A stretch of 48,328 bases of DNA from Gemmatimonadota bacterium. GTDB lineage: Bacteria > Gemmatimonadota > Gemmatimonadetes > Gemmatimonadales > Gemmatimonadaceae. A model generated the notes under the pieces. The model did not search any database and was not told the DNA's origin. It saw nothing but the letters and a program-made list of their open reading frames with translations. A program made the translations under genes and the position numbers. The DNA lies in NCBI GenBank assembly GCA_021324635.1, contig JAJPIS010000057.1, positions 1 through 48,328 of the forward strand, written 5' to 3'. Below, piece by piece: positions 8,057 to 36,565 of this stretch; the stretch's first letter is position 1; every line of letters begins with the position of its first letter.

Positions 8057-8512
8057 TCAGTCCCGGTAGGGTGAGTCTTCGTCCGAGCGGATGGCGGCGC
8101 TGAAGGCGCCGAGCGGGCCGGCGATCTCCTCGGCGAGCCCCACCAGCATGCCGCTCAGATGGTCGCCGTAGGCGAGGAGCCGCGCGGCGCGGGTCCGGTC
8201 AGCGAGCAGGAAGGCCAGTAGCGGCGTGTCCGCCTTGGCCGCGTTACACATGCGGCAAGCGAGCACGAGGTTGTCGCGGCGGTCGTACGCGAGCTGGCCG
8301 CGGCGCGGCGTGACGTGGTCGAGGGTCATCGACCGGGCAGCCCCGGTGCGTCCACAGTACGCGCAGACGGGTCCGTGGCGATCGAGGAGCCACTGGCGCG
8401 TGGCGGTATACGCCGCGCGGCCAGTCGGTTGCGACGTGAGGCGTGGCGGCGCCGACCGGGGGGCTCGAGCTCGCGAGCTGCGCCGCCGGCGGCGTGAAAC
8501 AGACTTTCTCAT
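8057..8512 (-). CDS. HNH endonuclease domain protein
   Basis: A 151-residue protein: a basic Arg/Ser-rich N-terminus (1-30), then an HNH domain with CAYCG (Cys50, Cys53), the catalytic LDHVTP (Asp65-His66), and the second zinc pair in CRMCN (Cys86, Cys89) followed by AAK. The C-terminal 50 residues are helical and unassigned. Such stand-alone HNH proteins are common; a DNA substrate is known for the fold but not for this protein. A TATCTT hexamer lies eight bases before the ATG on this strand and no Shine-Dalgarno is seen. Confidence 0.82.
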   Translation of the reverse strand: MRKSVSRRRRRSSRARAPRSAPPRLTSQPTGRAAYTATRQWLLDRHGPVCAYCGRTGAARSMTLDHVTPRRGQLAYDRRDNLVLACRMCNAAKADTPLLAFLLADRTRAARLLAYGDHLSGMLVGLAEEIAGPLGAFSAAIRSDEDSPYRD

Positions 8513-8608
8513 CCCGAGGAAAGATAGCGCCGACCGGACCCGTTCGCGGTAGCCGGCGGTCCTCCAGTTGCGTGGTGCAGCCCCATCGCAGCCAAGACGA
8601 GAGGCGAC

Positions 8609-10651
8609 ATGCATTGGTCTCGACTTCTGTTCGGGCGGCCGTTGCGCACGAGCGAGGAGCAGGGCGAGCGGATCGGAACGCTCCGGGGGGTGCCCGTGCT
8701 GGGGCTCGACGCCCTGGCGTCGGCCGCCTACGGCCCCGAGGCGGCGCTCACCGTCGCGCTTCCACTCGGCCTCGCCGCCACACGGCTCATCGAGCCGATC
8801 GTGGCCGCGATTATCGTCGTGCTCGCCCTGGTCGCGCTCTCCTACCAGCAGACCATCGCCGCCTACCCGGACGGCGGCGGCTCGTACACTGTCGCCTCGC
8901 AGAACCTCGGCCGGATGGCCGGCCTGGTGGCGGCGAGCGCGCTCGCCCTGGACTACATCCTCAACGTCGCGGTGGCGATCGCCGCGGGGGTGGGCGCCAT
9001 CGTGTCGGCCGCGCCGACGCTTCTCCCGCTCACGCTCTGGCTCTGCCTCGCCATCCTCGCCGGGCTCACGATCGTGAACCTGCGCGGCGTCCGCGAGGCG
9101 GGGCTCGTGTTCATGGCCCCGACGTACCTCTTCGTCCTCTGTCTCGGCGGCGCGATCCTGCTCGGGGTCGTGAAATCCATCGCCGCCCACGGGCATCCGC
9201 TTCCGATGAGCCCCCTGCCGCGCCCGCGGCCGATCGCCGGAACGGCCCTCGGCGCGTGGCTCCTCCTCCGCGCGTTCGCGAGCGGCACGACGGCCATGAC
9301 GGGCATCGAGGCCGTGAGCAATGGCGTGCCGCTCTTCAAGGAGCCGCGCACGGTACGCGCGCAGCGGACGCTCGTGACGATCGCCGCCATCCTCATCCTG
9401 TTGCTCGCCGGGATCGCGTTCCTGTCGCGCAGCTACGGCATCGCGGCCACGCCGCCGGGCCGGGCCGGCTACGAGAGCGTGCTGTCGCAGCTCGTCCGCG
9501 CGGTTGCCGGCCGCCATGCGTTCTACTACGTCACGATCGCATCGGTCGTGACCGTGCTCTGCCTCTCGGCGAACACGAGCTTCGCGGACTTCCCGCGACT
9601 CTGCCGGCTGCTGGCGCTCGACCAGTATCTCCCCTCGGGCTTCGCGCACCGTGGGCGCAGGCTCGTCTTCTCGGCGGGCATCATCGTCCTGGCGCTGCTC
9701 GCGGGCGCGCTGTTGGTGGTGTTCGGCGGTGTCACCGACCGCCTCATCCCCCTCTTCGCCATCGGCGCGCTCCTCGCGTTCACGATGTCGCAGTGGGGGA
9801 TGGTCGCCCACTGGCGGCGGCGCCGGGGTGCGCACGCGCGGCGCTCGATGCTGCTCAACGGCGCCGGTGCCGTCGCCACGTCGGCGACCGTGCTCGTGGT
9901 CGCGGCGTCGAAGTTCACCGAGGGCGCGTGGATCACGGTGCTCGTGATCCCGCTCTTCATTGCCCTGCTGCTCCGCATCCACACGGCCCACGTGCGAGTC
10001 GACCGCGAGCTGGCGGCCGCCGGGCCGTTCGACATCGCACCGCTGCCACCGCTCGTCGTCGTCCTGCCGATCAAGCGCCTGGACCGCGTGGCGCGCAAGG
10101 CCCTCCGGCTGGCGATGCGGATCTCCCCCGAGGTGGAGGTGATCCACGTTCTCACGGACGAGCCACGGATGGAGGACCTCCGCCGCCGCTGGACGGAGCT
10201 GGTCGCGAGCCCGGTGCGGGCCGCCGGCTATCCCCCGCCCACGCTCGTGTCCGTACCGTCGGCGTACCGCGAGTTCGTGCGCCCGGTCGTGCGACACATC
10301 CGCTCGCTGTGCCGCGTGCATCCCGACCGGTATGTCGCGGTGGTCATCCCCGACGTCGTGGAGCGGCGGTGGTACGACTATCCGATCCGCAACCTGCGGG
10401 CGCTGATGCTGCGGACCGCGCTCCTGCTTCGCGGCGGCCCGCACGTGCTGATCGTCGACACGCCGTGGCACCTGCGCGGCGGGCCGCGCTCGGAGCAGGA
10501 GCAGCCACTGGGCACCACTCCGCGGCCGACGGCACGGCACGCCACGGCACACGCCGCCGCGGGGTCGACGCCGCCGCGTGGCGAGTGGGCGGCCCGCGGC
10601 GCCGACGAATCCCGAACGGAATCTCGCGTGGACGGGTCAGGAGCGGCTTAG
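8609..10651 (+). CDS. APC-superfamily amino acid/potassium permease with cytosolic domain
   Basis: A 680-residue membrane protein. Residues 20-455 carry about 12 hydrophobic segments of the APC fold, with LGLDALASAAYGPEAAL and YPDGGGSYTVA near the N-terminus, typical of large amino acid or K+/APC transporters. Residues 470-620 form a soluble alpha/beta domain (LVVVLPIKRLDRVARKALRL, HVLTDEP) resembling a universal-stress-like module, then a disordered tail. The ATG follows GAGAGGCGAC. The 3' end overlaps the convergent hydrolase gene by 15 bp. Confidence 0.87.
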   Translation: MHWSRLLFGRPLRTSEEQGERIGTLRGVPVLGLDALASAAYGPEAALTVALPLGLAATRLIEPIVAAIIVVLALVALSYQQTIAAYPDGGGSYTVASQNLGRMAGLVAASALALDYILNVAVAIAAGVGAIVSAAPTLLPLTLWLCLAILAGLTIVNLRGVREAGLVFMAPTYLFVLCLGGAILLGVVKSIAAHGHPLPMSPLPRPRPIAGTALGAWLLLRAFASGTTAMTGIEAVSNGVPLFKEPRTVRAQRTLVTIAAILILLLAGIAFLSRSYGIAATPPGRAGYESVLSQLVRAVAGRHAFYYVTIASVVTVLCLSANTSFADFPRLCRLLALDQYLPSGFAHRGRRLVFSAGIIVLALLAGALLVVFGGVTDRLIPLFAIGALLAFTMSQWGMVAHWRRRRGAHARRSMLLNGAGAVATSATVLVVAASKFTEGAWITVLVIPLFIALLLRIHTAHVRVDRELAAAGPFDIAPLPPLVVVLPIKRLDRVARKALRLAMRISPEVEVIHVLTDEPRMEDLRRRWTELVASPVRAAGYPPPTLVSVPSAYREFVRPVVRHIRSLCRVHPDRYVAVVIPDVVERRWYDYPIRNLRALMLRTALLLRGGPHVLIVDTPWHLRGGPRSEQEQPLGTTPRPTARHATAHAAAGSTPPRGEWAARGADESRTESRVDGSGAA

Positions 10652-25938: not shown

Positions 25939-28900
25939 TCACGGGTAATCCAGTGCCAGGCCGCCGTGCCGGAAGCCCGCGCGACGAACAGCGGCCGCCC
26001 GTGGACTGCTCGCGGCCGCGATCCCGTCGATCGTCTCCAGTGACCGCGGCCGACGCCGCGGGTCGCCCTCCCCGCTCCCGGCGCCGCGCCCGAGATACTC
26101 GACGAGCGCCCGCACCGCGGCCGTCACCTCCTCGTCCGTCAGCCCCGGGGCGAGTCGCACCCGCCGGCCCCGACCCTCGGCCGCCAGCACGACCACGCCG
26201 CGCCGCGTCACCAGGATGGCCCCGGCACCCCGCGGCCGCGTGAGTGGATCGCGCTCCCCCGGCGGCTCGAGCGGCGAGCGGGGAAGCGAATAGATGTTCG
26301 CCGGATCGGTCGCCGCGAGCGCCACGTACGGCGCCTCCGGATCGTCCCGCGCCCCGCGCAACCGCTCGACCGCGTCCGGCGTCGCGAACTGCGCCCCACC
26401 CAACCCCTCCACGAAGTACCCGCGCCGAACCTCGCCCCGATACTCGAGGCGCCTGAGCTCCCGATAGATCGCCCGCCAACTCACCGGCGGACGCTCCCGC
26501 CGCCACCACTCGCGCGTCACGACGCCGTACCGCACGAGCCACACCTGGGCGATGCGCGCCGCGTGCGTCTCCTCGTCCGGCCGCTCACCCATGACGCCGG
26601 GCGCCGACAGCAACGACCACCGCCCGATCCACCCGGCCCCGCCCCCACCGCCGCCCCCCCCGCCGCCGGTCTCGCCCGGCCGGTCTGGACGCCGCCAACG
26701 CGGGAGCCGCGTGACGTTGACACGGCGCTGGACGATCCGACCGACCGACGGAGTGAAATCGGAGGGCAGCCAGCGTGTCGGATCGGGCTCGTTCCGCCTC
26801 GGGCGCCACGGCAACGGACGCGCCCGCACGACCTCGCGTAGCGCCTCCACGGTGTCGTTCGTCGCGAGACCGGCCGCCACGAGCTCGCGCAGCGCGTCGC
26901 GCGTGGCGAGCGGTCCGAGCGACGCGCCGGCCGTGAGGTCGGCGACGAAGGACGCGCCCTGCCCTGCGAGCACATCACGCACCGCGGCCGCGGCGTCGCT
27001 GAGCGGCGGCGCATCGGCGGGGTCGAGCCAGAGCGCGCCCGCCCCACGCGGGAAGAACCGCACCGTCGCCAGCGTCGCCGTCGCTCCCGGCGAGGTGGAC
27101 GCCCCCGACGATGCGCTTTGTGCCGATGCCGCGCCCTCGGCCCGCGACGCCCCGCCCGCCCACACGATCGACCCGGCCGCGGCGAGCCGCCCGAGCCAGG
27201 CCGGATCGTACCGCTCGACGCGCGACCGCAGGTAGTCGCGCTCCCACCCGACGGCGGGCCGCGCCAGGCCCGCGAGCTGGTCCACGACTGCCGCCAGTCC
27301 TTCCTCGCCCGTCACGCGGTCGCGCGGGTCGACGTGCTGCCATCGCTGGAGGAAGCTGGCGAAGGTCGCACGGTCCGTCGCCCGAATCTCGGCCCGGAGC
27401 GCCGCGAGCGTCCGCCGCCGCGCCCGCTCCAGCAGCGCGCGACTGCACCACTCGGGCGCCCCGTCCCCCGACTCACCCCGTTCCCCGTCACCAGCGGGCC
27501 GCGGACGAATCGCGCCGCGCACGAGCTTCCCCGCACGATGCCAGTCGGCGAGCCGCGACTCGATCCAGTCGGCGGGCCACGGATACCGGGCCACGATCTC
27601 GGCAACGGTCACCGGACCGCTGAGGGCGAGGAACCGGCCCAGGATCTCGCGCCGCGCGGTCCGGTCGCCGCCCGCGGCCGCCTCGTACCGGGACACGAGC
27701 TCCCGCGGCACGATGCGCGTCTGGTCGGGCGCTCCGGGCGCCGCGGCGCCGATCGGCACCGCCGCCACGCGGTCGCTCTCGAGGAGCGCCGACAGGGGAT
27801 CGGCGCCGCCACGCCACTCGGCGGCCGGCGCGACCCGCGTCCGCAGCTCCTCCGCCGTGAGATCGCCGGCACGCTCGAGCAGCAGCAACAGCTCGTCGGC
27901 GTCGCGCGCCCGACGCCGGGCCACCGTCCCCCGCCGCTCCGCGAGCAGGACCTCGAGCGCGCGCGCTGTCGGGTCGTCGAGTCGCGTGCCGTCGACGCCC
28001 ATCAGCTCCTCGAGCATCCCGCGATCGATCGACAGCAGCGTCGCCGCCCGCTCGGCGCGCGGCGTGTCGTCCGTGTAGAGCCAGTCGATCACGAACCCGA
28101 ACTGGAGCCCGCCCGCGAACGGCGACGGCCGCTCCGTCTCGACCACGTGCACGGCGATCCGCCGCTCAGAGATGCCCTGCACCACCGCGCGGACCGCCGG
28201 CAGGTCGAAGGCATCCTGAAGCACCTCGCGATAGGTCTCGACCAGCACCGGGAAGGTCGGGAAGTCCCGGACGACCTCGAGCAGGTCGAGCGCCTTGAGC
28301 CGCTGGAGCCAGAGCGGCATCCGCCGGCGCGGCGAGCCCCGCGGCAGGAGCAGCGCGCGCGCCGCGTTCATCCGGAAGCGCGCCCCGAAGAGCGGCGCCC
28401 GCCCGACCTCGTCGACGATCCGGCGCTCGGCGTCGCCGGCGCTCATCTCGAGGAGCGCCGCGACCGGCGGCGCGCGCCCCACGTCCGGCAGCCGGAGCAT
28501 GATCCCGTCGTCGCTCGTCTGCACCTGGAGGTCGACCTCGCCACCCAGCAGCTCGCGCATGCGATGCGCGAGCGCCATCCCCCACGGCGCGTTCACGCGG
28601 CCGCCGAAGATCGAGTGCACGACGATCCGCACCGCCCCCATCTCATCGCGGAAGTGCTCGACGACGAGCGTCTCGTCATCGGGGACGACCCCGGTCGCCG
28701 CGCGCTGCTCGGCCACGTACCGGCGCAGGCTGCCGACGCTGGCCGCGTCGCACCGATAGCGGGCCTCGAGCGCGACATCGTCGAGCGCGCCGCCCGCGAG
28801 CTCGCGCCGGATCTCGCCGACACGTCGCGCCAGCTCGACACTCCGGGTCACGAACTCCCCGTGCCAGAAGGGCATTCGCGCCGGGCGGCCGGGCGCCGGC

Positions 28901-30633
28901 GTCACGATCACGCGATCGTGCTCGATCGCCCCGATGCGCCAGGTCGCCGAGCCGAGCTGAAAGACATCGCCAACGCGCGACTCGTGGACGAACTCCTCAT
29001 CGAGCTCGCCGAGTCGCGTCCGGTCGGGCAGGTTGACGGTGTAGAGTCCACGGTCGGGGATCGTCCCGCCCGAGATCACCGCCGTCAAACGGCTCCCACG
29101 GAGGCCGGCGACGCGGCCGGTCGCCCGATCCCACGTGAGACGGGGCTCCAGTTCGGCCGCCAGGTCGGTCGGGTACTTCCCCGCCAGCATCGCCAACGTC
29201 TCATCGAAGGCGGCGCGCGAGAGCCGATGGTAGGGGTACGACCGTCGCACGAGCGCGAACAGGTCGTCGGCCGTGCGCTCCTCGACCGCCGCCATCGCGA
29301 CGAGCGACTGCGCGAGCACATCGAGCGCGTTCTGGGGCACGCGCAGGGCCTCGACCTCGCCGGCGAGCATCGCGGTGCCGATCGCCACGCACTCGGCGAG
29401 ATCGTCGCGATAGGTGGGCACGAGCACGCCTCGGCTGACGTCGCGCAGCGAGTGGCCCGCACGGCCGACACGCTGAAGCCCCGCCGAGACGCGCTTCGGG
29501 CTCTGAAGCTGGAGCACGAGATCGATCGAGCCGATGTCGATCCCGAGCTCGAGGGAACTGGTCGTCACCAGCGCCCGCAGCTCGCCCGCCTGGAGCGCGC
29601 GCTCGAGCGTGAGCCGTCGCTCCCGGGAGAGCGAGCCATGGTACGGTCGCGCCAACGGCTCGCCGGCGAGCTCGTTGATCCGGGCGGCGATCTTCTCCGC
29701 CTGCGCGCGATTGTTGACGAAGACGAGCGTCGTCCGCGCCCCGCGGATCGCCTCCACGGCGAGGGCCGCCACCGCCGGCCACACCGAGCCGCCGACCCGC
29801 GCCAGATCGGGGACGGGCGACCGGATCGTCAGCGCCATCGGCTTGAGCAGCCCGCAGTCGACGATGCGCACCGGGCGGAAGCGCGGCCCGCCGTCGTCGG
29901 CACCGGCGGCGGTGCCAGCCGCGGAACCGCCCTCGCGCGCGGGCTCGCAGCCCCCAAGAAAGCGGGCCACTTCGTCGAGCGGCCGCTGCGTCGCCGACAG
30001 GCCGATCCGCTGGGGCGGATCGGCGCCCGCGGCGCGGCACAGTGCGTCGAGCCGCTCCAGCGTGAGCGCGAGGTGCACGCCGCGCTTCCCCGCGGCCACG
30101 GCGTGGATCTCGTCGATGATCACCGCCCGCACGCCCGGGAAGAGCGTTCGCCCGCGCGACGTGGTGAGGAGAATGTTCAGCGACTCGGGGGTCGTGATCA
30201 GGATGTGCGGCGTCACCCGGAGCATCCGGGCGCGGGCCGCCGGCGTCGTGTCTCCGCTCCGCACGGCCACCCGGATCTCCGGGAACGGCTCACCGGCGTC
30301 GGCGAATCGCCGCGTGAGCTCGGCGAGCGGACGCTCGAGGTTTCGATGGATGTCGTTGCCGAGGGCCTTGAGCGGCGAGACGTACAGGATCTGGACCGCG
30401 TTCGGGAGCGGCGCCCTCTGGCCATCGACGATGAGGGCGTTCAGCTCCCAGAGGAACGCGGCGAGCGTCTTACCGGTCCCGGTCGGCGCCAGGATCAGCG
30501 TGTGGCCACCCTCGGCGATCGCCGGCCACCCGGACTCCTGAGGCGGGCTCGGCGCGCCGAGCGTTTCCTCGAACCACCGGCGGACGAGCGGATGGAAACC
30601 CACCGACGAGCCCGGCGGCGATCCCGGCGACAT
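25939..30633 (-). CDS. lhr: Lhr-family ATP-dependent helicase (large form)
   Basis: A 1564-residue superfamily-2 helicase. The DEAD/H core has Walker A APTGTGKT (49-56), VSPLKALGNDIHRNL (Ia), TPESL (148-152), DEIH (174-177), LSAT, and motif VI QRVGRAGHS. The Lhr-specific winged-helix and beta-barrel domains follow to about residue 850 (YTVNLPDRTRLGELDEEFVHE, FGGRVNAPWGMALAHRMRE). A large C-terminal extension to 1564 matches the long Lhr form. A run of about ten glycines (TGGGGGG region, encoded near 26640-26675) forms a linker. Lhr unwinds DNA or RNA:DNA hybrids in repair. A -10 sits six bases before the ATG. Confidence 0.95.
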   Translation of the reverse strand: MSPGSPPGSSVGFHPLVRRWFEETLGAPSPPQESGWPAIAEGGHTLILAPTGTGKTLAAFLWELNALIVDGQRAPLPNAVQILYVSPLKALGNDIHRNLERPLAELTRRFADAGEPFPEIRVAVRSGDTTPAARARMLRVTPHILITTPESLNILLTTSRGRTLFPGVRAVIIDEIHAVAAGKRGVHLALTLERLDALCRAAGADPPQRIGLSATQRPLDEVARFLGGCEPAREGGSAAGTAAGADDGGPRFRPVRIVDCGLLKPMALTIRSPVPDLARVGGSVWPAVAALAVEAIRGARTTLVFVNNRAQAEKIAARINELAGEPLARPYHGSLSRERRLTLERALQAGELRALVTTSSLELGIDIGSIDLVLQLQSPKRVSAGLQRVGRAGHSLRDVSRGVLVPTYRDDLAECVAIGTAMLAGEVEALRVPQNALDVLAQSLVAMAAVEERTADDLFALVRRSYPYHRLSRAAFDETLAMLAGKYPTDLAAELEPRLTWDRATGRVAGLRGSRLTAVISGGTIPDRGLYTVNLPDRTRLGELDEEFVHESRVGDVFQLGSATWRIGAIEHDRVIVTPAPGRPARMPFWHGEFVTRSVELARRVGEIRRELAGGALDDVALEARYRCDAASVGSLRRYVAEQRAATGVVPDDETLVVEHFRDEMGAVRIVVHSIFGGRVNAPWGMALAHRMRELLGGEVDLQVQTSDDGIMLRLPDVGRAPPVAALLEMSAGDAERRIVDEVGRAPLFGARFRMNAARALLLPRGSPRRRMPLWLQRLKALDLLEVVRDFPTFPVLVETYREVLQDAFDLPAVRAVVQGISERRIAVHVVETERPSPFAGGLQFGFVIDWLYTDDTPRAERAATLLSIDRGMLEELMGVDGTRLDDPTARALEVLLAERRGTVARRRARDADELLLLLERAGDLTAEELRTRVAPAAEWRGGADPLSALLESDRVAAVPIGAAAPGAPDQTRIVPRELVSRYEAAAGGDRTARREILGRFLALSGPVTVAEIVARYPWPADWIESRLADWHRAGKLVRGAIRPRPAGDGERGESGDGAPEWCSRALLERARRRTLAALRAEIRATDRATFASFLQRWQHVDPRDRVTGEEGLAAVVDQLAGLARPAVGWERDYLRSRVERYDPAWLGRLAAAGSIVWAGGASRAEGAASAQSASSGASTSPGATATLATVRFFPRGAGALWLDPADAPPLSDAAAAVRDVLAGQGASFVADLTAGASLGPLATRDALRELVAAGLATNDTVEALREVVRARPLPWRPRRNEPDPTRWLPSDFTPSVGRIVQRRVNVTRLPRWRRPDRPGETGGGGGGGGGGAGWIGRWSLLSAPGVMGERPDEETHAARIAQVWLVRYGVVTREWWRRERPPVSWRAIYRELRRLEYRGEVRRGYFVEGLGGAQFATPDAVERLRGARDDPEAPYVALAATDPANIYSLPRSPLEPPGERDPLTRPRGAGAILVTRRGVVVLAAEGRGRRVRLAPGLTDEEVTAAVRALVEYLGRGAGSGEGDPRRRPRSLETIDGIAAASSPRAAAVRRAGFRHGGLALDYP

Positions 30634-30639
30634 GTGGGA

Positions 30640-30645
30640 AATGTA
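30640..30645 (-). promoter_or_regulatory. -10 element (TACATT) just before the lhr start
   Basis: TACATT on the minus strand ends six bases upstream of the lhr ATG, with TCCCAC between and no Shine-Dalgarno. A leaderless transcript is implied. No clear -35 is seen. Confidence 0.5.
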
Positions 30646-30761
30646 CCCGCCGCGGCGCCGCGACCCCGGCCTGCGACCGGCATTGTCCCTCGGGCATGTC
30701 CCTTGCTTTGGCTGGGCCTGCGCGGCGGAAGCGGATCCAGACACTTGCCGGGGGAGAGCCA

Positions 30762-31016
30762 ATGTTGCTCTGGTGGATCATCGTCGGACTCATCGCGGGA
30801 TGGGCGACGGGTAAGATCATGCGGGGCTCGGGCTACGGGCCGTTGCTCGACATCGTGCTGGGGATCGTCGGAGCGTTGATCGGCGGCTATATCATGGCCG
30901 CGCTGGGTTTCTCCAGCGCCGGCGGGACGATCTACACGATCCTGGTGGCGATCGTCGGTGCCTGCATTCTGGTCGCACTCGTGCGACTCATCACCGGCAG
31001 ACGAGCGGCCATCTAG
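30762..31016 (+). CDS. GlsB/YeaQ/YmgE family membrane protein
   Basis: An 84-residue protein of the transglycosylase-associated (GlsB/YeaQ/YmgE) family: LLWWIIVGLIAGWATGKIMRG, then GPLLDIVLGIVGALIGGYIM and ILVAIVGACILVALVRLI, three small glycine-rich membrane segments. These proteins are often stress-induced in the cell envelope; the name reflects genetic association, not enzyme activity. GGGGGAGAGCC precedes the ATG. It is divergent from lhr across a short promoter region. Confidence 0.92.
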   Translation: MLLWWIIVGLIAGWATGKIMRGSGYGPLLDIVLGIVGALIGGYIMAALGFSSAGGTIYTILVAIVGACILVALVRLITGRRAAI

Positions 31017-34376: not shown

Positions 34377-34877
34377 ATGCCCAGCAACGAGAACCTGCAA
34401 TCGCTCTACGTCGACCAATTGCGCGATCTGTACAGCGCCGAGTACCAGATCCTCGACGCGCTCCCCAAGATGGTGAAGCAGTCGCACCACCGCGAGTTGG
34501 CGGACGCGCTCGACAAGCATCGGCAAGTCACCGAGACGCAGGTGCAGCGCCTCAAGGACATCTTCTCCGACCTGAACGAGAGCCCTGGCGGCGAGAAGTG
34601 CGAGGCGATGGAAGGCATCCTCAAGGAAGGGAAGCGCGAGATGGGGCAGTGGCACGATCGCGCGGTGCTGGACGCGGCGATCATCGCGTCGGCGCAGCGG
34701 GTCGAGCACTACGAGATGGCCGGCTACGGGACCGCCCGCTCGCTGGCGCAGACCCTGGGGCTCGACCGGCACGCCGATCTCCTTCAACAGACGCTCAATG
34801 AAGAGGGCGAGGCGGACCATACGCTGAGCGGCATCGCCGACTCCGTCGTCAACGCCGACGCGATGCGGGCGATGTAG
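34377..34877 (+). CDS. YciE/YciF-type (DUF892) ferritin-like protein
   Basis: A 166-residue cytosolic four-helix protein of the DUF892 family. The N-terminal helix LQSLYVDQLRDLYSAEYQILDALPKM carries the first ligand-type Glu22; KHRQVTETQVQRLKDIF, IIASAQRVEHYEMAGYGTARSLA (Glu110, His111, Glu113) and NEEGEADHTLSGIA (Glu142-Glu145, His148) give the rest of a di-iron site. The family is stress-induced; ferroxidase-like activity is inferred from the fold. AAGGAG lies six bases upstream of the ATG. Its 3' end overlaps the convergent H-domain gene by 29 bp. Confidence 0.93.
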   Translation: MPSNENLQSLYVDQLRDLYSAEYQILDALPKMVKQSHHRELADALDKHRQVTETQVQRLKDIFSDLNESPGGEKCEAMEGILKEGKREMGQWHDRAVLDAAIIASAQRVEHYEMAGYGTARSLAQTLGLDRHADLLQQTLNEEGEADHTLSGIADSVVNADAMRAM

Positions 34878-35886
34878 GCACCCCCGGGAGTGTCGGCGGG
34901 CGAGTCGCCTCCCCAGCGGATGCCCGAGGCGGCCCGCCGGCTGGCGCGGGGCGCACGCCCGAGGCCCTCGTCGCGGGATCGTGGAGGGCGGCGAGCGCCT
35001 CCAGCGCGATCGGGCCTGTGGGGTGGTCACCCGCCCGCCCCGCCTCGACCGAGCCCGCCCAGGGCTCGAGCGGCCGCGACACATCGACCGGGACGTCGTG
35101 ATCGAGCACCTCGTGGACGGCACGGGGCGGCTCGAGGGCGGCGACCCGGGCGCGCGCGTCGATCCAGGACTCCCCGTCGATCGCGCCGCTGCACGCGCAG
35201 CCGAGTCGCGGAGCCAGATCCAACAGCCGCCGCTCACCCAGCGTGATATGGTGAGCGACCTCGGCGAGATCGTCGCGGGCCGTGGGCTCGAGCAGCGCGT
35301 GGCCGCGCCGCTCGGCGTAGAGCCAGTTCGGCGCCGGCGCCCCGCCCGGCACCGAGTAGAAGCGCCGCCCATCGCGGAACCGCCGCTCGTCGACCGTCGG
35401 CGGCTGCGCGGCGGGGTCGATCCCGCGCTTGGCGAGGCTACGGAAGAGCGCGGCCGGCGTCGCGTGGCGGTCGACCGCGGGATCGGCCGCGCCCGGGCAC
35501 TCGCCAATGTAGGTGACGTGCACCCCGAACCGTCCGGCGCGCGCCCGGACGTAGCGGGCCGCGGCCACCGGCGGGGGGGCGAGCGACAGGACGTATGGCA
35601 CGAGGGCCGCCATGCGCCGGAGTCGCTCGGCGACGCGGGGGCAGACACAGAGCACGACAGGCGCTTCGGCCCGCCCCGGCAGGGCGCGCACGCAGGCGGC
35701 GGCGATGAGCTCATCCCCCCAGCTCGCCGGGATCACGGCACTGTATCCGGCCGCATAGCACGCGTTCGCCACCTGTGCGGGCGTGGCCGGACGCGCGGCG
35801 AGCAGCGTGTCGGCGCCCAGAACGATGACATTCGGAGTAGCGCTACCCGACCGCGCATGCGTCGCGGCGGCTGGAGCTGAGGACAT
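34849..35886 (-). CDS. Divergent [FeFe]-hydrogenase H-domain-like protein
   Basis: A 345-residue protein whose middle follows the [FeFe]-hydrogenase catalytic domain. LCVCPRVAERLRRM (Cys80, Cys82) corresponds to L1 (TSCCP-type), with LSLAPPPVAAARYVR matching the SPQQMFGAL helix. VTYIGECPGAADPAVD (Cys130) corresponds to L2 (MPCxxKxxE), FYSVPGGAPAPNWLYAE to the FGxTGGVMEAALRT loop, and RLGCACSGAIDG (Cys230, Cys232) to L3. The L2 lysine, the adjacent Cys-Cys of L1 and all N-terminal ferredoxin domains are missing. Hydrogen metabolism is unlikely; a 4Fe-4S-binding sensor or scaffold (as in Nar1/NARF-type relatives) is an inference. The C-terminal 60 residues are disordered. Confidence 0.65.
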   Translation of the reverse strand: MSSAPAAATHARSGSATPNVIVLGADTLLAARPATPAQVANACYAAGYSAVIPASWGDELIAAACVRALPGRAEAPVVLCVCPRVAERLRRMAALVPYVLSLAPPPVAAARYVRARAGRFGVHVTYIGECPGAADPAVDRHATPAALFRSLAKRGIDPAAQPPTVDERRFRDGRRFYSVPGGAPAPNWLYAERRGHALLEPTARDDLAEVAHHITLGERRLLDLAPRLGCACSGAIDGESWIDARARVAALEPPRAVHEVLDHDVPVDVSRPLEPWAGSVEAGRAGDHPTGPIALEALAALHDPATRASGVRPAPAGGPPRASAGEATRPPTLPGVPTSPASRRR

Positions 35887-36010: not shown

Positions 36011-36565
36011 TCAGGCCGAGGCGGCCCGCTCGATCACCCGGAGGATCTCGTCGACCGTGCTCGCGCCGTGGTCCCGCGCGTACCAGCGGCGCACCTCACG
36101 ATACCGGCTCTCCTTGTCGAGGAGTCGGCCCTCCCCCACCACCCAGGCCTGGAGCTCGCGCGGCCTCGGGCCCCACCAGCCGCGCTCGCGGTACGCGGCG
36201 TCGAGCACGATCGCGATCGGGATCGACCGCGCGCCATTGCTCAGGTGCGCGTCCATGATGTCGAGGTTCGCGTCGCGCGGCAGGATCCGGAGGTCGAGCG
36301 TGTCGGCGGGGGCACGCTCCACGAGCCGCGCGATCACGGGCAGTGTGTTCACGGCGTCGCCGCACCAGTCCTCGGCCAGGACGAGCAGGTGCCAGCGCCC
36401 ACCGATCGCCGCCAGCCGGGCCACGGCCGCGTCGCTCACCTGGGCACGCGCGGCGACCGCGTGCCAGAGTGCGGCGTTGGCCGCGACCGAGGCGAGGAAC
36501 GCCGAGAACGGGACACCCGACTCGTACCGCTCTTGCGGGATCCGATCGATGCCGACGGACGCCAT
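36011..36565 (-). CDS. Thioredoxin-fold protein with a single active-site cysteine
   Basis: A 184-residue cytosolic protein. HLLVLAEDWCGDAVNTLPVIARL gives the thioredoxin strand-motif-helix; the CxxC position reads C68-G-D-A71, so only the first cysteine is kept. LRILPRDANLDIMDAHLSNGARSIPIAIVLD follows with the cis-proline loop (SIP). This matches the 'thioredoxin family' group of about 180 residues common in Bacteroidota and soil phyla. A monothiol role (glutaredoxin-like, trapping or transferase) is inferred. Divergent from endonuclease III across 43 bp. Confidence 0.83.
   Translation of the reverse strand: MASVGIDRIPQERYESGVPFSAFLASVAANAALWHAVAARAQVSDAAVARLAAIGGRWHLLVLAEDWCGDAVNTLPVIARLVERAPADTLDLRILPRDANLDIMDAHLSNGARSIPIAIVLDAAYRERGWWGPRPRELQAWVVGEGRLLDKESRYREVRRWYARDHGASTVDEILRVIERAASA

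Follow-up and report, generated by a model that had tools for sequence, protein, structure and literature searches.

An H-domain protein of Gemmatimonadaceae with a rearranged cysteine site: a candidate iron-sulfur sensor

The locus and its gene neighbours

The window, that is the whole analysed stretch of 48,328 nucleotides (contig JAJPIS010000057.1, Gemmatimonadaceae), contains at 34849-35886 a reverse-strand open reading frame for a protein of 345 aa, here called P0001, whose location is as given in an initial annotation of this DNA (Table 1). Its translation has Cys80, Cys82, Cys130, the GGAPAPNWLY loop, Cys230 and Cys232 in the order claimed there, and, as also claimed, it has no ferredoxin domain, the Pfam scan giving 0 families for the protein. 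The convergent overlap with a YciE/F-like ferritin gene, also described previously, is real and covers the stop codon of P0001 within its 29 bases (34849-34877). Elsewhere in the window, a 1607-aa Lhr-type helicase (DEAD, WH_Lhr, DEAD_assoc) is encoded downstream at 25939-30762, and an 831-aa open reading frame at 8057-10552 has a C-terminal HNH nuclease as its sole family match (5.9e-9), with the remainder assigned to no family.

Table 1. Positions of P0001, its motifs and its adjacent genes in the window, and of the scanned Fer4-H-like-FeS-GGDEF proteins at their own loci
Feature	Position	Strand	Remarks and basis
P0001 CDS, H-domain-like protein, 345 aa + stop	34849..35886	-	ATG at 35886, stop at 34849; translation
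H-like domain, residues 17-270	35077..35838	-	aligned region A1; AlphaFold2 model
L1-type motif C80-V-C82	35641..35649	-	C82 in CpI C300 column; column mapping
Cys130, L2 position	35497..35499	-	CpI C355 column; column mapping
SVPGGAP loop, residues 178-184	35335..35355	-	GGV loop equivalent of HydA; alignment
L3-type motif C230-A-C232	35191..35199	-	C230 in CpI C503 column; column mapping, profile alignment
Short C-terminal tail, residues 271-345	34852..35076	-	no membrane helix, unlike same-genus orthologues
Thioredoxin_9 gene	36011..36565	-	directly upstream of P0001; PF14595, E 6.5e-33
DUF892 (YciE/F-like, ferritin-like) gene	34377..34877	+	convergent with P0001; PF05974, E 7.7e-52
Scanned Fer4-H-like-FeS-GGDEF proteins	L057 9245-10954; L055 1501-3246; L069 9005-10693; L142 7559-9283; L146 7971-9692		

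The two same-genus orthologues of P0001, L032 and L033 (69% and 65% identity, E 2.4e-135 and 2.8e-130), have 896 and 866 aa, each with a membrane helix, while no helix is predicted in the tail of the shorter P0001. Similarity to the L033 tail stops near 34951, at about residue 312 (E 0.001), and GC3 is down to 0.61 in the last segment of P0001. The DUF892 gene lies between P0001 and a penicillin amidase gene, and the latter two are adjacent in L032 and L033; most likely, insertion of the DUF892 gene removed the tail. The domain itself is, as judged from codon comparison, under purifying selection, with dN/dS values of 0.21 and 0.22 against the same-genus orthologues and 0.045 for L032 against L033.

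Taxonomic families are denoted here as f1 (that of P0001), f2 (a sister family in the same order), f3 (a third family), f7 and f9 (two more families of the same class) and f11 (a more distant family). After removal of near-identical loci, 47 f1 loci were left for comparison of gene order. A CRP-like gene lies divergently upstream in 24, the same block without this gene or with parts of the block is found in 12, and the H-like gene adjoins sulfocyanin, CtaG/SCO1 or acyl-CoA dehydrogenase genes in 6, Thioredoxin_9 and penicillin amidase genes in 3 (the window, L032 and L033) and an M20-type peptidase gene in 2; in these classes ORF starts were set by a simple rule, and small negative gaps are start-codon artefacts. 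The L034 (7436-11626), L035 (7924-8535), L073 and L077 loci form a subgroup by sulfocyanin (SoxE) together with CtaG/SCO1 or acyl-CoA dehydrogenase, a hint that this subgroup is linked to respiratory copper proteins.

The CRP-like gene was found in 16 of 60 genomes (E <= 1e-20), of which 9 have it next to an H-like gene and 7 carry it without one; no H-like remnant was found in the seven latter regions. The M28, CRP and ABH genes are consecutive in L159 and L164, and M28 and CRP are adjacent on one strand in some regions. The H-like gene is an optional occupant, on the other strand, of this conserved block. Since the block exists without the H-like gene, its adjacency to the CRP-like gene may be only conserved gene order, and the CRP-like gene as an obligate partner is weakened as a candidate by the seven genomes that carry it alone. 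The 24 CRP-like proteins lack an FNR-type cysteine set: Cys is present in half or more of them at a single column, with 12 of the 24. In the L159 to L165 regions the PDE, Smr, M28, CRP and ABH block is partly kept, with no H-like gene between M28 and CRP.

The searches revealed neither an effector nor a DNA-binding domain for the f1 branch, and no partner that recurs consistently. The Thioredoxin_9 gene is next to the H-like gene in all three same-genus loci, and its product is a possible operon partner of P0001. Because it has CGDA (CGDG in one orthologue) at the expected CxxC site, this protein is unlikely as a disulfide partner and is probably not a disulfide reductase.

Relationship to the H-domain and the search for hydrogenase genes

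P0001 is a true relative of the [FeFe]-hydrogenase H-domain, as the initial annotation had proposed. Searches of Pfam, NCBIfam and PDB sequences with P0001 alone gave no useful match, PF02906 (Fe_hyd_lg_C) being absent at E <= 10, yet this family matches 18 of 23 f1 branch members scanned singly (E <= 10, best 2.1e-8), which makes the H-domain match more than chance. An avirulence effector in the PDB row for P0001 (E 0.96) was rejected as a chance match. Three scanned f2 members have PF02906 at E 9.3e-17, 4.1e-10 and 8.8e-11, and the survey of the phylum has 8 matching genomes in the taxonomic family of P0001 at E <= 0.001, with the curated cut-off exceeded in 6. The f1 profile aligns with that of the GGDEF-fused f2 proteins at E 5.6e-38 over 250 columns (hhalign) and with the HydS-like profile at E 7.8e-12. 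Searched against the PDB, the 33-row f1 alignment profile matches a flavoenzyme at E 0.48 and reaches Fe-hydrogenases at no better than E 0.73 to 0.99, and the sister-branch alignment gives hydrogenases from E 5.7e-5.

The AlphaFold2 model of residues 10-285, made from an alignment of the window protein with 32 relatives, has a mean pLDDT of 91.5 and a pTM of 0.89. Foldseek ranks [FeFe]-hydrogenases first for this model (E 1.4e-8), and VIA-align superimposes it on T. maritima HydA with Z 18.8 and an rmsd of 3.4 A over 254 residues at 13% identity; all 50 matches listed by VIA-align are [FeFe]-hydrogenases or their subunits (Z 14.9 to 18.8, identity 9 to 16%). The predicted fold, on which the earlier proposal had been made to depend, is thus related to that of the H-domain. 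The term relic used at that time is misleading, since the family is conserved and the dN/dS value of the P0001 domain against its same-genus orthologues is about 0.21.

The host, a soil bacterium, appears to be without an iron-iron hydrogenase. In its genome, which is 96.8% complete, there was no PF02906 match at E <= 1e-3, and neither HydF nor HydG was matched over the curated cut-off. Among the 31 genomes searched, HydF exceeds the cut-off in 2 and HydG in 1, with a split copy of HydG in the other f11 genome, and none of the 29 genomes from f1, f2, f7 and f9 has either of them over the cut-off. Only such matches were counted, because weaker ones are widespread also among the controls: HydF is matched below the cut-off in all 31 genomes and all 14 controls, and any match to HydG, below the cut-off, was obtained in 12 of 31 genomes and 7 of 14 controls. 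These weaker matches presumably represent other GTPases and radical-SAM proteins. Without a PF02906 match and without HydF or HydG over the cut-off in the genome, a complete H-cluster in P0001 is very unlikely.

Relatives in the phylum and the cysteines of the H-site

Matches to P0001 were found in 34 of 60 genomes, its own included (17 of 36 in f1, 17 of 17 in f2 and 0 of 7 in f3), and 19 of 35 relatives of its taxonomic family gave none. A second copy (L031) is present in the same genome on another contig (G000:C42). No match was found on plasmids. The contig scan yielded 33 loci whose titles all name Gemmatimonadetes, Gemmatimonadaceae or Gemmatimonas, though as a scan with one peptide pattern it leaves room for other phyla, and the survey of the phylum with the f1 profile gave matches in 88 of 298 genomes (20 f1, 54 f2, 12 f7/f9 and 2 f11).

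The relatives within the phylum can be arranged as a series. At one end are sensors of the HydS type that have a real hydrogenase next to them: in the f11 genome G060 the genes for a NuoF-like subunit, HydA and a kinase fusion of 669 aa (Fer4 motifs, H-domain, FeS domain and histidine kinase) are consecutive, with HydG and HydF further on, and a second HydS-like protein carries a PAS domain; G065 has the same pair of HydA and kinase fusion. This arrangement, a hydrogenase operon of the distant family with the HydS-type histidine kinase fusion directly behind HydA, is seen at L139 (3433-13445) and L141 (2983-6977). Next come proteins with Fer4, H-domain, FeS and GGDEF domains, found in all 5 scanned proteins of f2, f7 and f9, a type of Gemmatimonadota protein for which we know of no name. 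In the f1 branch the H-domain stands alone and is followed by a linker, which has an [LIVM]PR-type motif in 28 of 47 proteins, and then by a predicted membrane helix in 27 of 47, these tail counts being based on a hydropathy threshold and a motif set by us and including some tails that a contig end truncates.

A maximum-likelihood tree was made from a 62-row H-domain alignment (29 f1, 17 f2, 10 f7/f9, 3 HydS-like and 3 HydA sequences, all of the same phylum). With long branches flagged, f1 forms one clade (100/99) and is sister to f2 plus f7/f9 (96/84), with HydA and HydS-like proteins on the other side; HydS is represented in this tree by the HydS-like proteins of the same phylum. Given this position and the architectures of the relatives, loss of the Fer4 and FeS domains in the f1 lineage is the simpler reading. 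We would refine the earlier description and place P0001 in a HydS-related radiation within Gemmatimonadota.

Among the 47 non-redundant f1 proteins Cys82 and Cys130 are invariant, and Cys230 and Cys232 are present in all 46 complete ones, L103 running off its contig before Cys230. Gly181 and Gly182 of the SVPGGAP loop are likewise found in 47 of 47, Cys80 in 42, Cys43 in 39 and Cys65 in 23. The full retention of Cys82, Cys130, Cys230 and Cys232 is to be compared with a mean column identity of 52% in the 33-row alignment A3. Because of its contig end L103 was omitted from the 33-row alignment; L051 was omitted from A1, L064 from A2, and the short L066 and L070 from one alignment.

In the 62-row alignment Cys82, Cys130 and Cys230 occupy the columns of CpI C300, C355 and C503, residue numbers that we presume for the columns from their motifs. 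The numbering of C299 as used here agrees with that in PMC8163306. The C299 column has Val in P0001 and Cys in none of the 29 f1 sequences, so the L1 Cys-Cys pair is lost as had been claimed, and so is the L2 lysine, replaced by Ala in 27 and Gly in 2 of them; the lysine is retained in the 3 HydS-like and 3 HydA sequences and in 0 of the 56 remaining ones. The previously proposed L3 pair stands in part: Cys230 corresponds to an old ligand, whereas Cys232 occupies a new position, with Cys in 29 of 29 f1 sequences and 0 of 33 other H-domains, and the C499 equivalent is lost (Arg in P0001, Cys in 2 of 29 f1). P0001 thereby retains a four-cysteine site that, to judge from the sequence, could bind one iron-sulfur cluster. 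Two HydA proteins, L139 5440-7164 and L141 5004-6977, have TSCSP for TSCCP in L1, which puts Ser in the C300 column, and otherwise resemble complete hydrogenases.

The four H-site ligands are kept in 9 of 17 f2 and 0 of 10 f7/f9 sequences, and all 29 f1 sequences have the rearranged four-cysteine set. Three or four of the H-site cysteines are lost in 18 of the 27 aligned Fer4-H-like-FeS-GGDEF proteins. Of the 30 sister sequences (f2, f7/f9 and HydS-like), 12 have Cys at all four ligand positions, 17 have it at none and 1 has a mixed pattern, a hint that the four may act as co-ligands, though the counts follow the tree and so represent few independent events. This joint retention or loss, the alignment of three P0001 cysteines with H-site ligands and the invariance of all four in the 46 complete f1 proteins speak indirectly for a grouping of the four cysteines in space.

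Possible function of the f1 branch

P0001 can be compared with several known H-domain systems. HydS is described in PMC8163306 as having two N-terminal [4Fe-4S] motifs, an H-domain without C299 and a C-terminal Cx2Cx4Cx16C motif, and as often sharing an operon with a group A hydrogenase. With HydS of groups C (M2f, TmHydS) and D (M2e, TamHydS) P0001 has in common the H-domain fold and the non-conservation of C299, and the HydS-type proteins of its own phylum, one kind of which has a histidine kinase, adjoin a group A-like hydrogenase and sit between HydA and f1 in the tree. In contrast to HydS, P0001 has no N-terminal [4Fe-4S] domains, C-terminal FeS domain, PAS, kinase or GGDEF domain, one of its four H-cluster ligands is replaced, and its genome lacks a hydrogenase match and HydF or HydG over the cut-off. 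The Fer4-H-like-FeS-GGDEF proteins are the nearest relatives of its domain, and the 14 tested genomes with them are all without HydF or HydG over the cut-off, but unlike P0001 they still have their accessory-cluster domains and carry a diguanylate cyclase as well. In the open-access literature we found no paper on a fusion of [FeFe]-hydrogenase with GGDEF (diguanylate cyclase) or on a repurposed H-domain. Nar1/IOP1/CIAO3 and NARF of eukaryotes share with P0001 an H-domain scaffold without an H-cluster. The group A [FeFe]-hydrogenases CpI, CrHydA1 and TmHydA share its fold over the whole H-domain and differ in the one ligand and the L2 lysine that P0001 has lost.

On balance we lean towards P0001 being a non-catalytic [4Fe-4S] sensor of redox state or gases on an H-domain scaffold, and the uncharacterised Fe-S sensor family suggested in the initial annotation remains a good reading. 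From the tree and the shared domain order, P0001 would descend from, or share an ancestor with, the HydS-type sensory hydrogenases, and would now be without the two ferredoxin-type clusters, the FeS domain at the C terminus and residues that are key to holding the 2Fe subsite, so that a putative four-cysteine site is left where the cubane of the H-cluster sat. This site would bind one [4Fe-4S] cluster, and the redox state or integrity of the cluster (under O2, NO, peroxide or the cellular redox state) may alter the conformation of P0001 or its binding to a partner. In most relatives the domain would be tethered to the membrane through a long linker and one helix, and the tail-less window copy may act in the cytoplasm, perhaps with the upstream thioredoxin-like protein. 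The fusions of the domain in sister branches, with GGDEF or with a histidine kinase, provide a signalling context that was counted in favour of a sensor role.

The ligand-free H-domains of sister proteins are still recognisable, so the domain can have a use even with no cluster there; of all arguments this weighs most heavily against a cluster-centred picture of the domain in general. It also speaks for cysteines that bind zinc or form disulfides, with P0001 as a structural adaptor or thiol switch that has no Fe-S cluster, as do the CxC pair formed with the near-invariant fifth cysteine, Cys80, and the thioredoxin-like gene beside all three loci of the window type. We regard this as unlikely, however, because three of the four invariant cysteines are in H-cluster ligand columns and the CGDA or CGDG of the thioredoxin-like neighbour makes it a doubtful disulfide partner. 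A bacterial analogue of Nar1/IOP1, whose scaffold would carry a [4Fe-4S] cluster transiently and pass it to client proteins, has a precedent in Nar1 itself, a known H-domain protein without H-cluster that is called a repurposed scaffold in PMC12991071, and would suit an H-site cysteine set kept where the genome shows neither HydF nor HydG over the cut-off. According to that paper, Nar1 conserves eight cysteines, an N-terminal set among them, and has a conserved tryptophan at its end. P0001 has neither, the usual f1 form is membrane-tethered by its predicted helix, and absence of the gene from more than half of the family relatives would be odd for an assembly factor, which leaves such a carrier improbable.

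Decay of the window copy, truncated by insertion of the ferritin-like gene while the paralogue on the other contig does the work, would account for the missing tail and helix with DUF892 in their place, for the presence of that paralogue and for a dN/dS value against L032 above that between the two orthologues. The intact reading frame with all invariant residues kept, the dN/dS value well below 1 and the tail-less members found elsewhere (L040, L046, L047 and the paralogue L031) make it a poor prospect nevertheless. The chance that P0001 is a working [FeFe]-hydrogenase of unusual sequence is, in spite of the same predicted fold, close to nil: the C499 equivalent, the L2 lysine and the accessory electron-transfer clusters are gone, HydF and HydG over the curated cut-offs are lacking, and this reading was rejected for the lost ligand and lysine and for the lack of these two maturases over the cut-off.

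Returning to the [4Fe-4S] sensor, we would tentatively extend the proposal to the phylum, where Gemmatimonadota may harbour a radiation of hydrogen-blind HydS relatives. The GGDEF-fused branch would often drop the H-site cluster and keep the accessory clusters, and the f1 branch would do the opposite, with a rebuilt four-cysteine H-site (C499 lost, Cys232 gained) as the sole sensor, usually tethered to the membrane. If true, this would add to the [4Fe-4S] sensors a new class that is built on the scaffold of a hydrogenase. The f1 and sister proteins form a natural dissection, with H-site cysteines alone in one and accessory-cluster domains without H-site cysteines in the other, and comparing them would reveal where in the scaffold a signal is carried and whether signals other than H2 can be reported. 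The f1 family also suggests a bacterial counterpart of Nar1 in the sense of an H-domain protein that works without an H-cluster.
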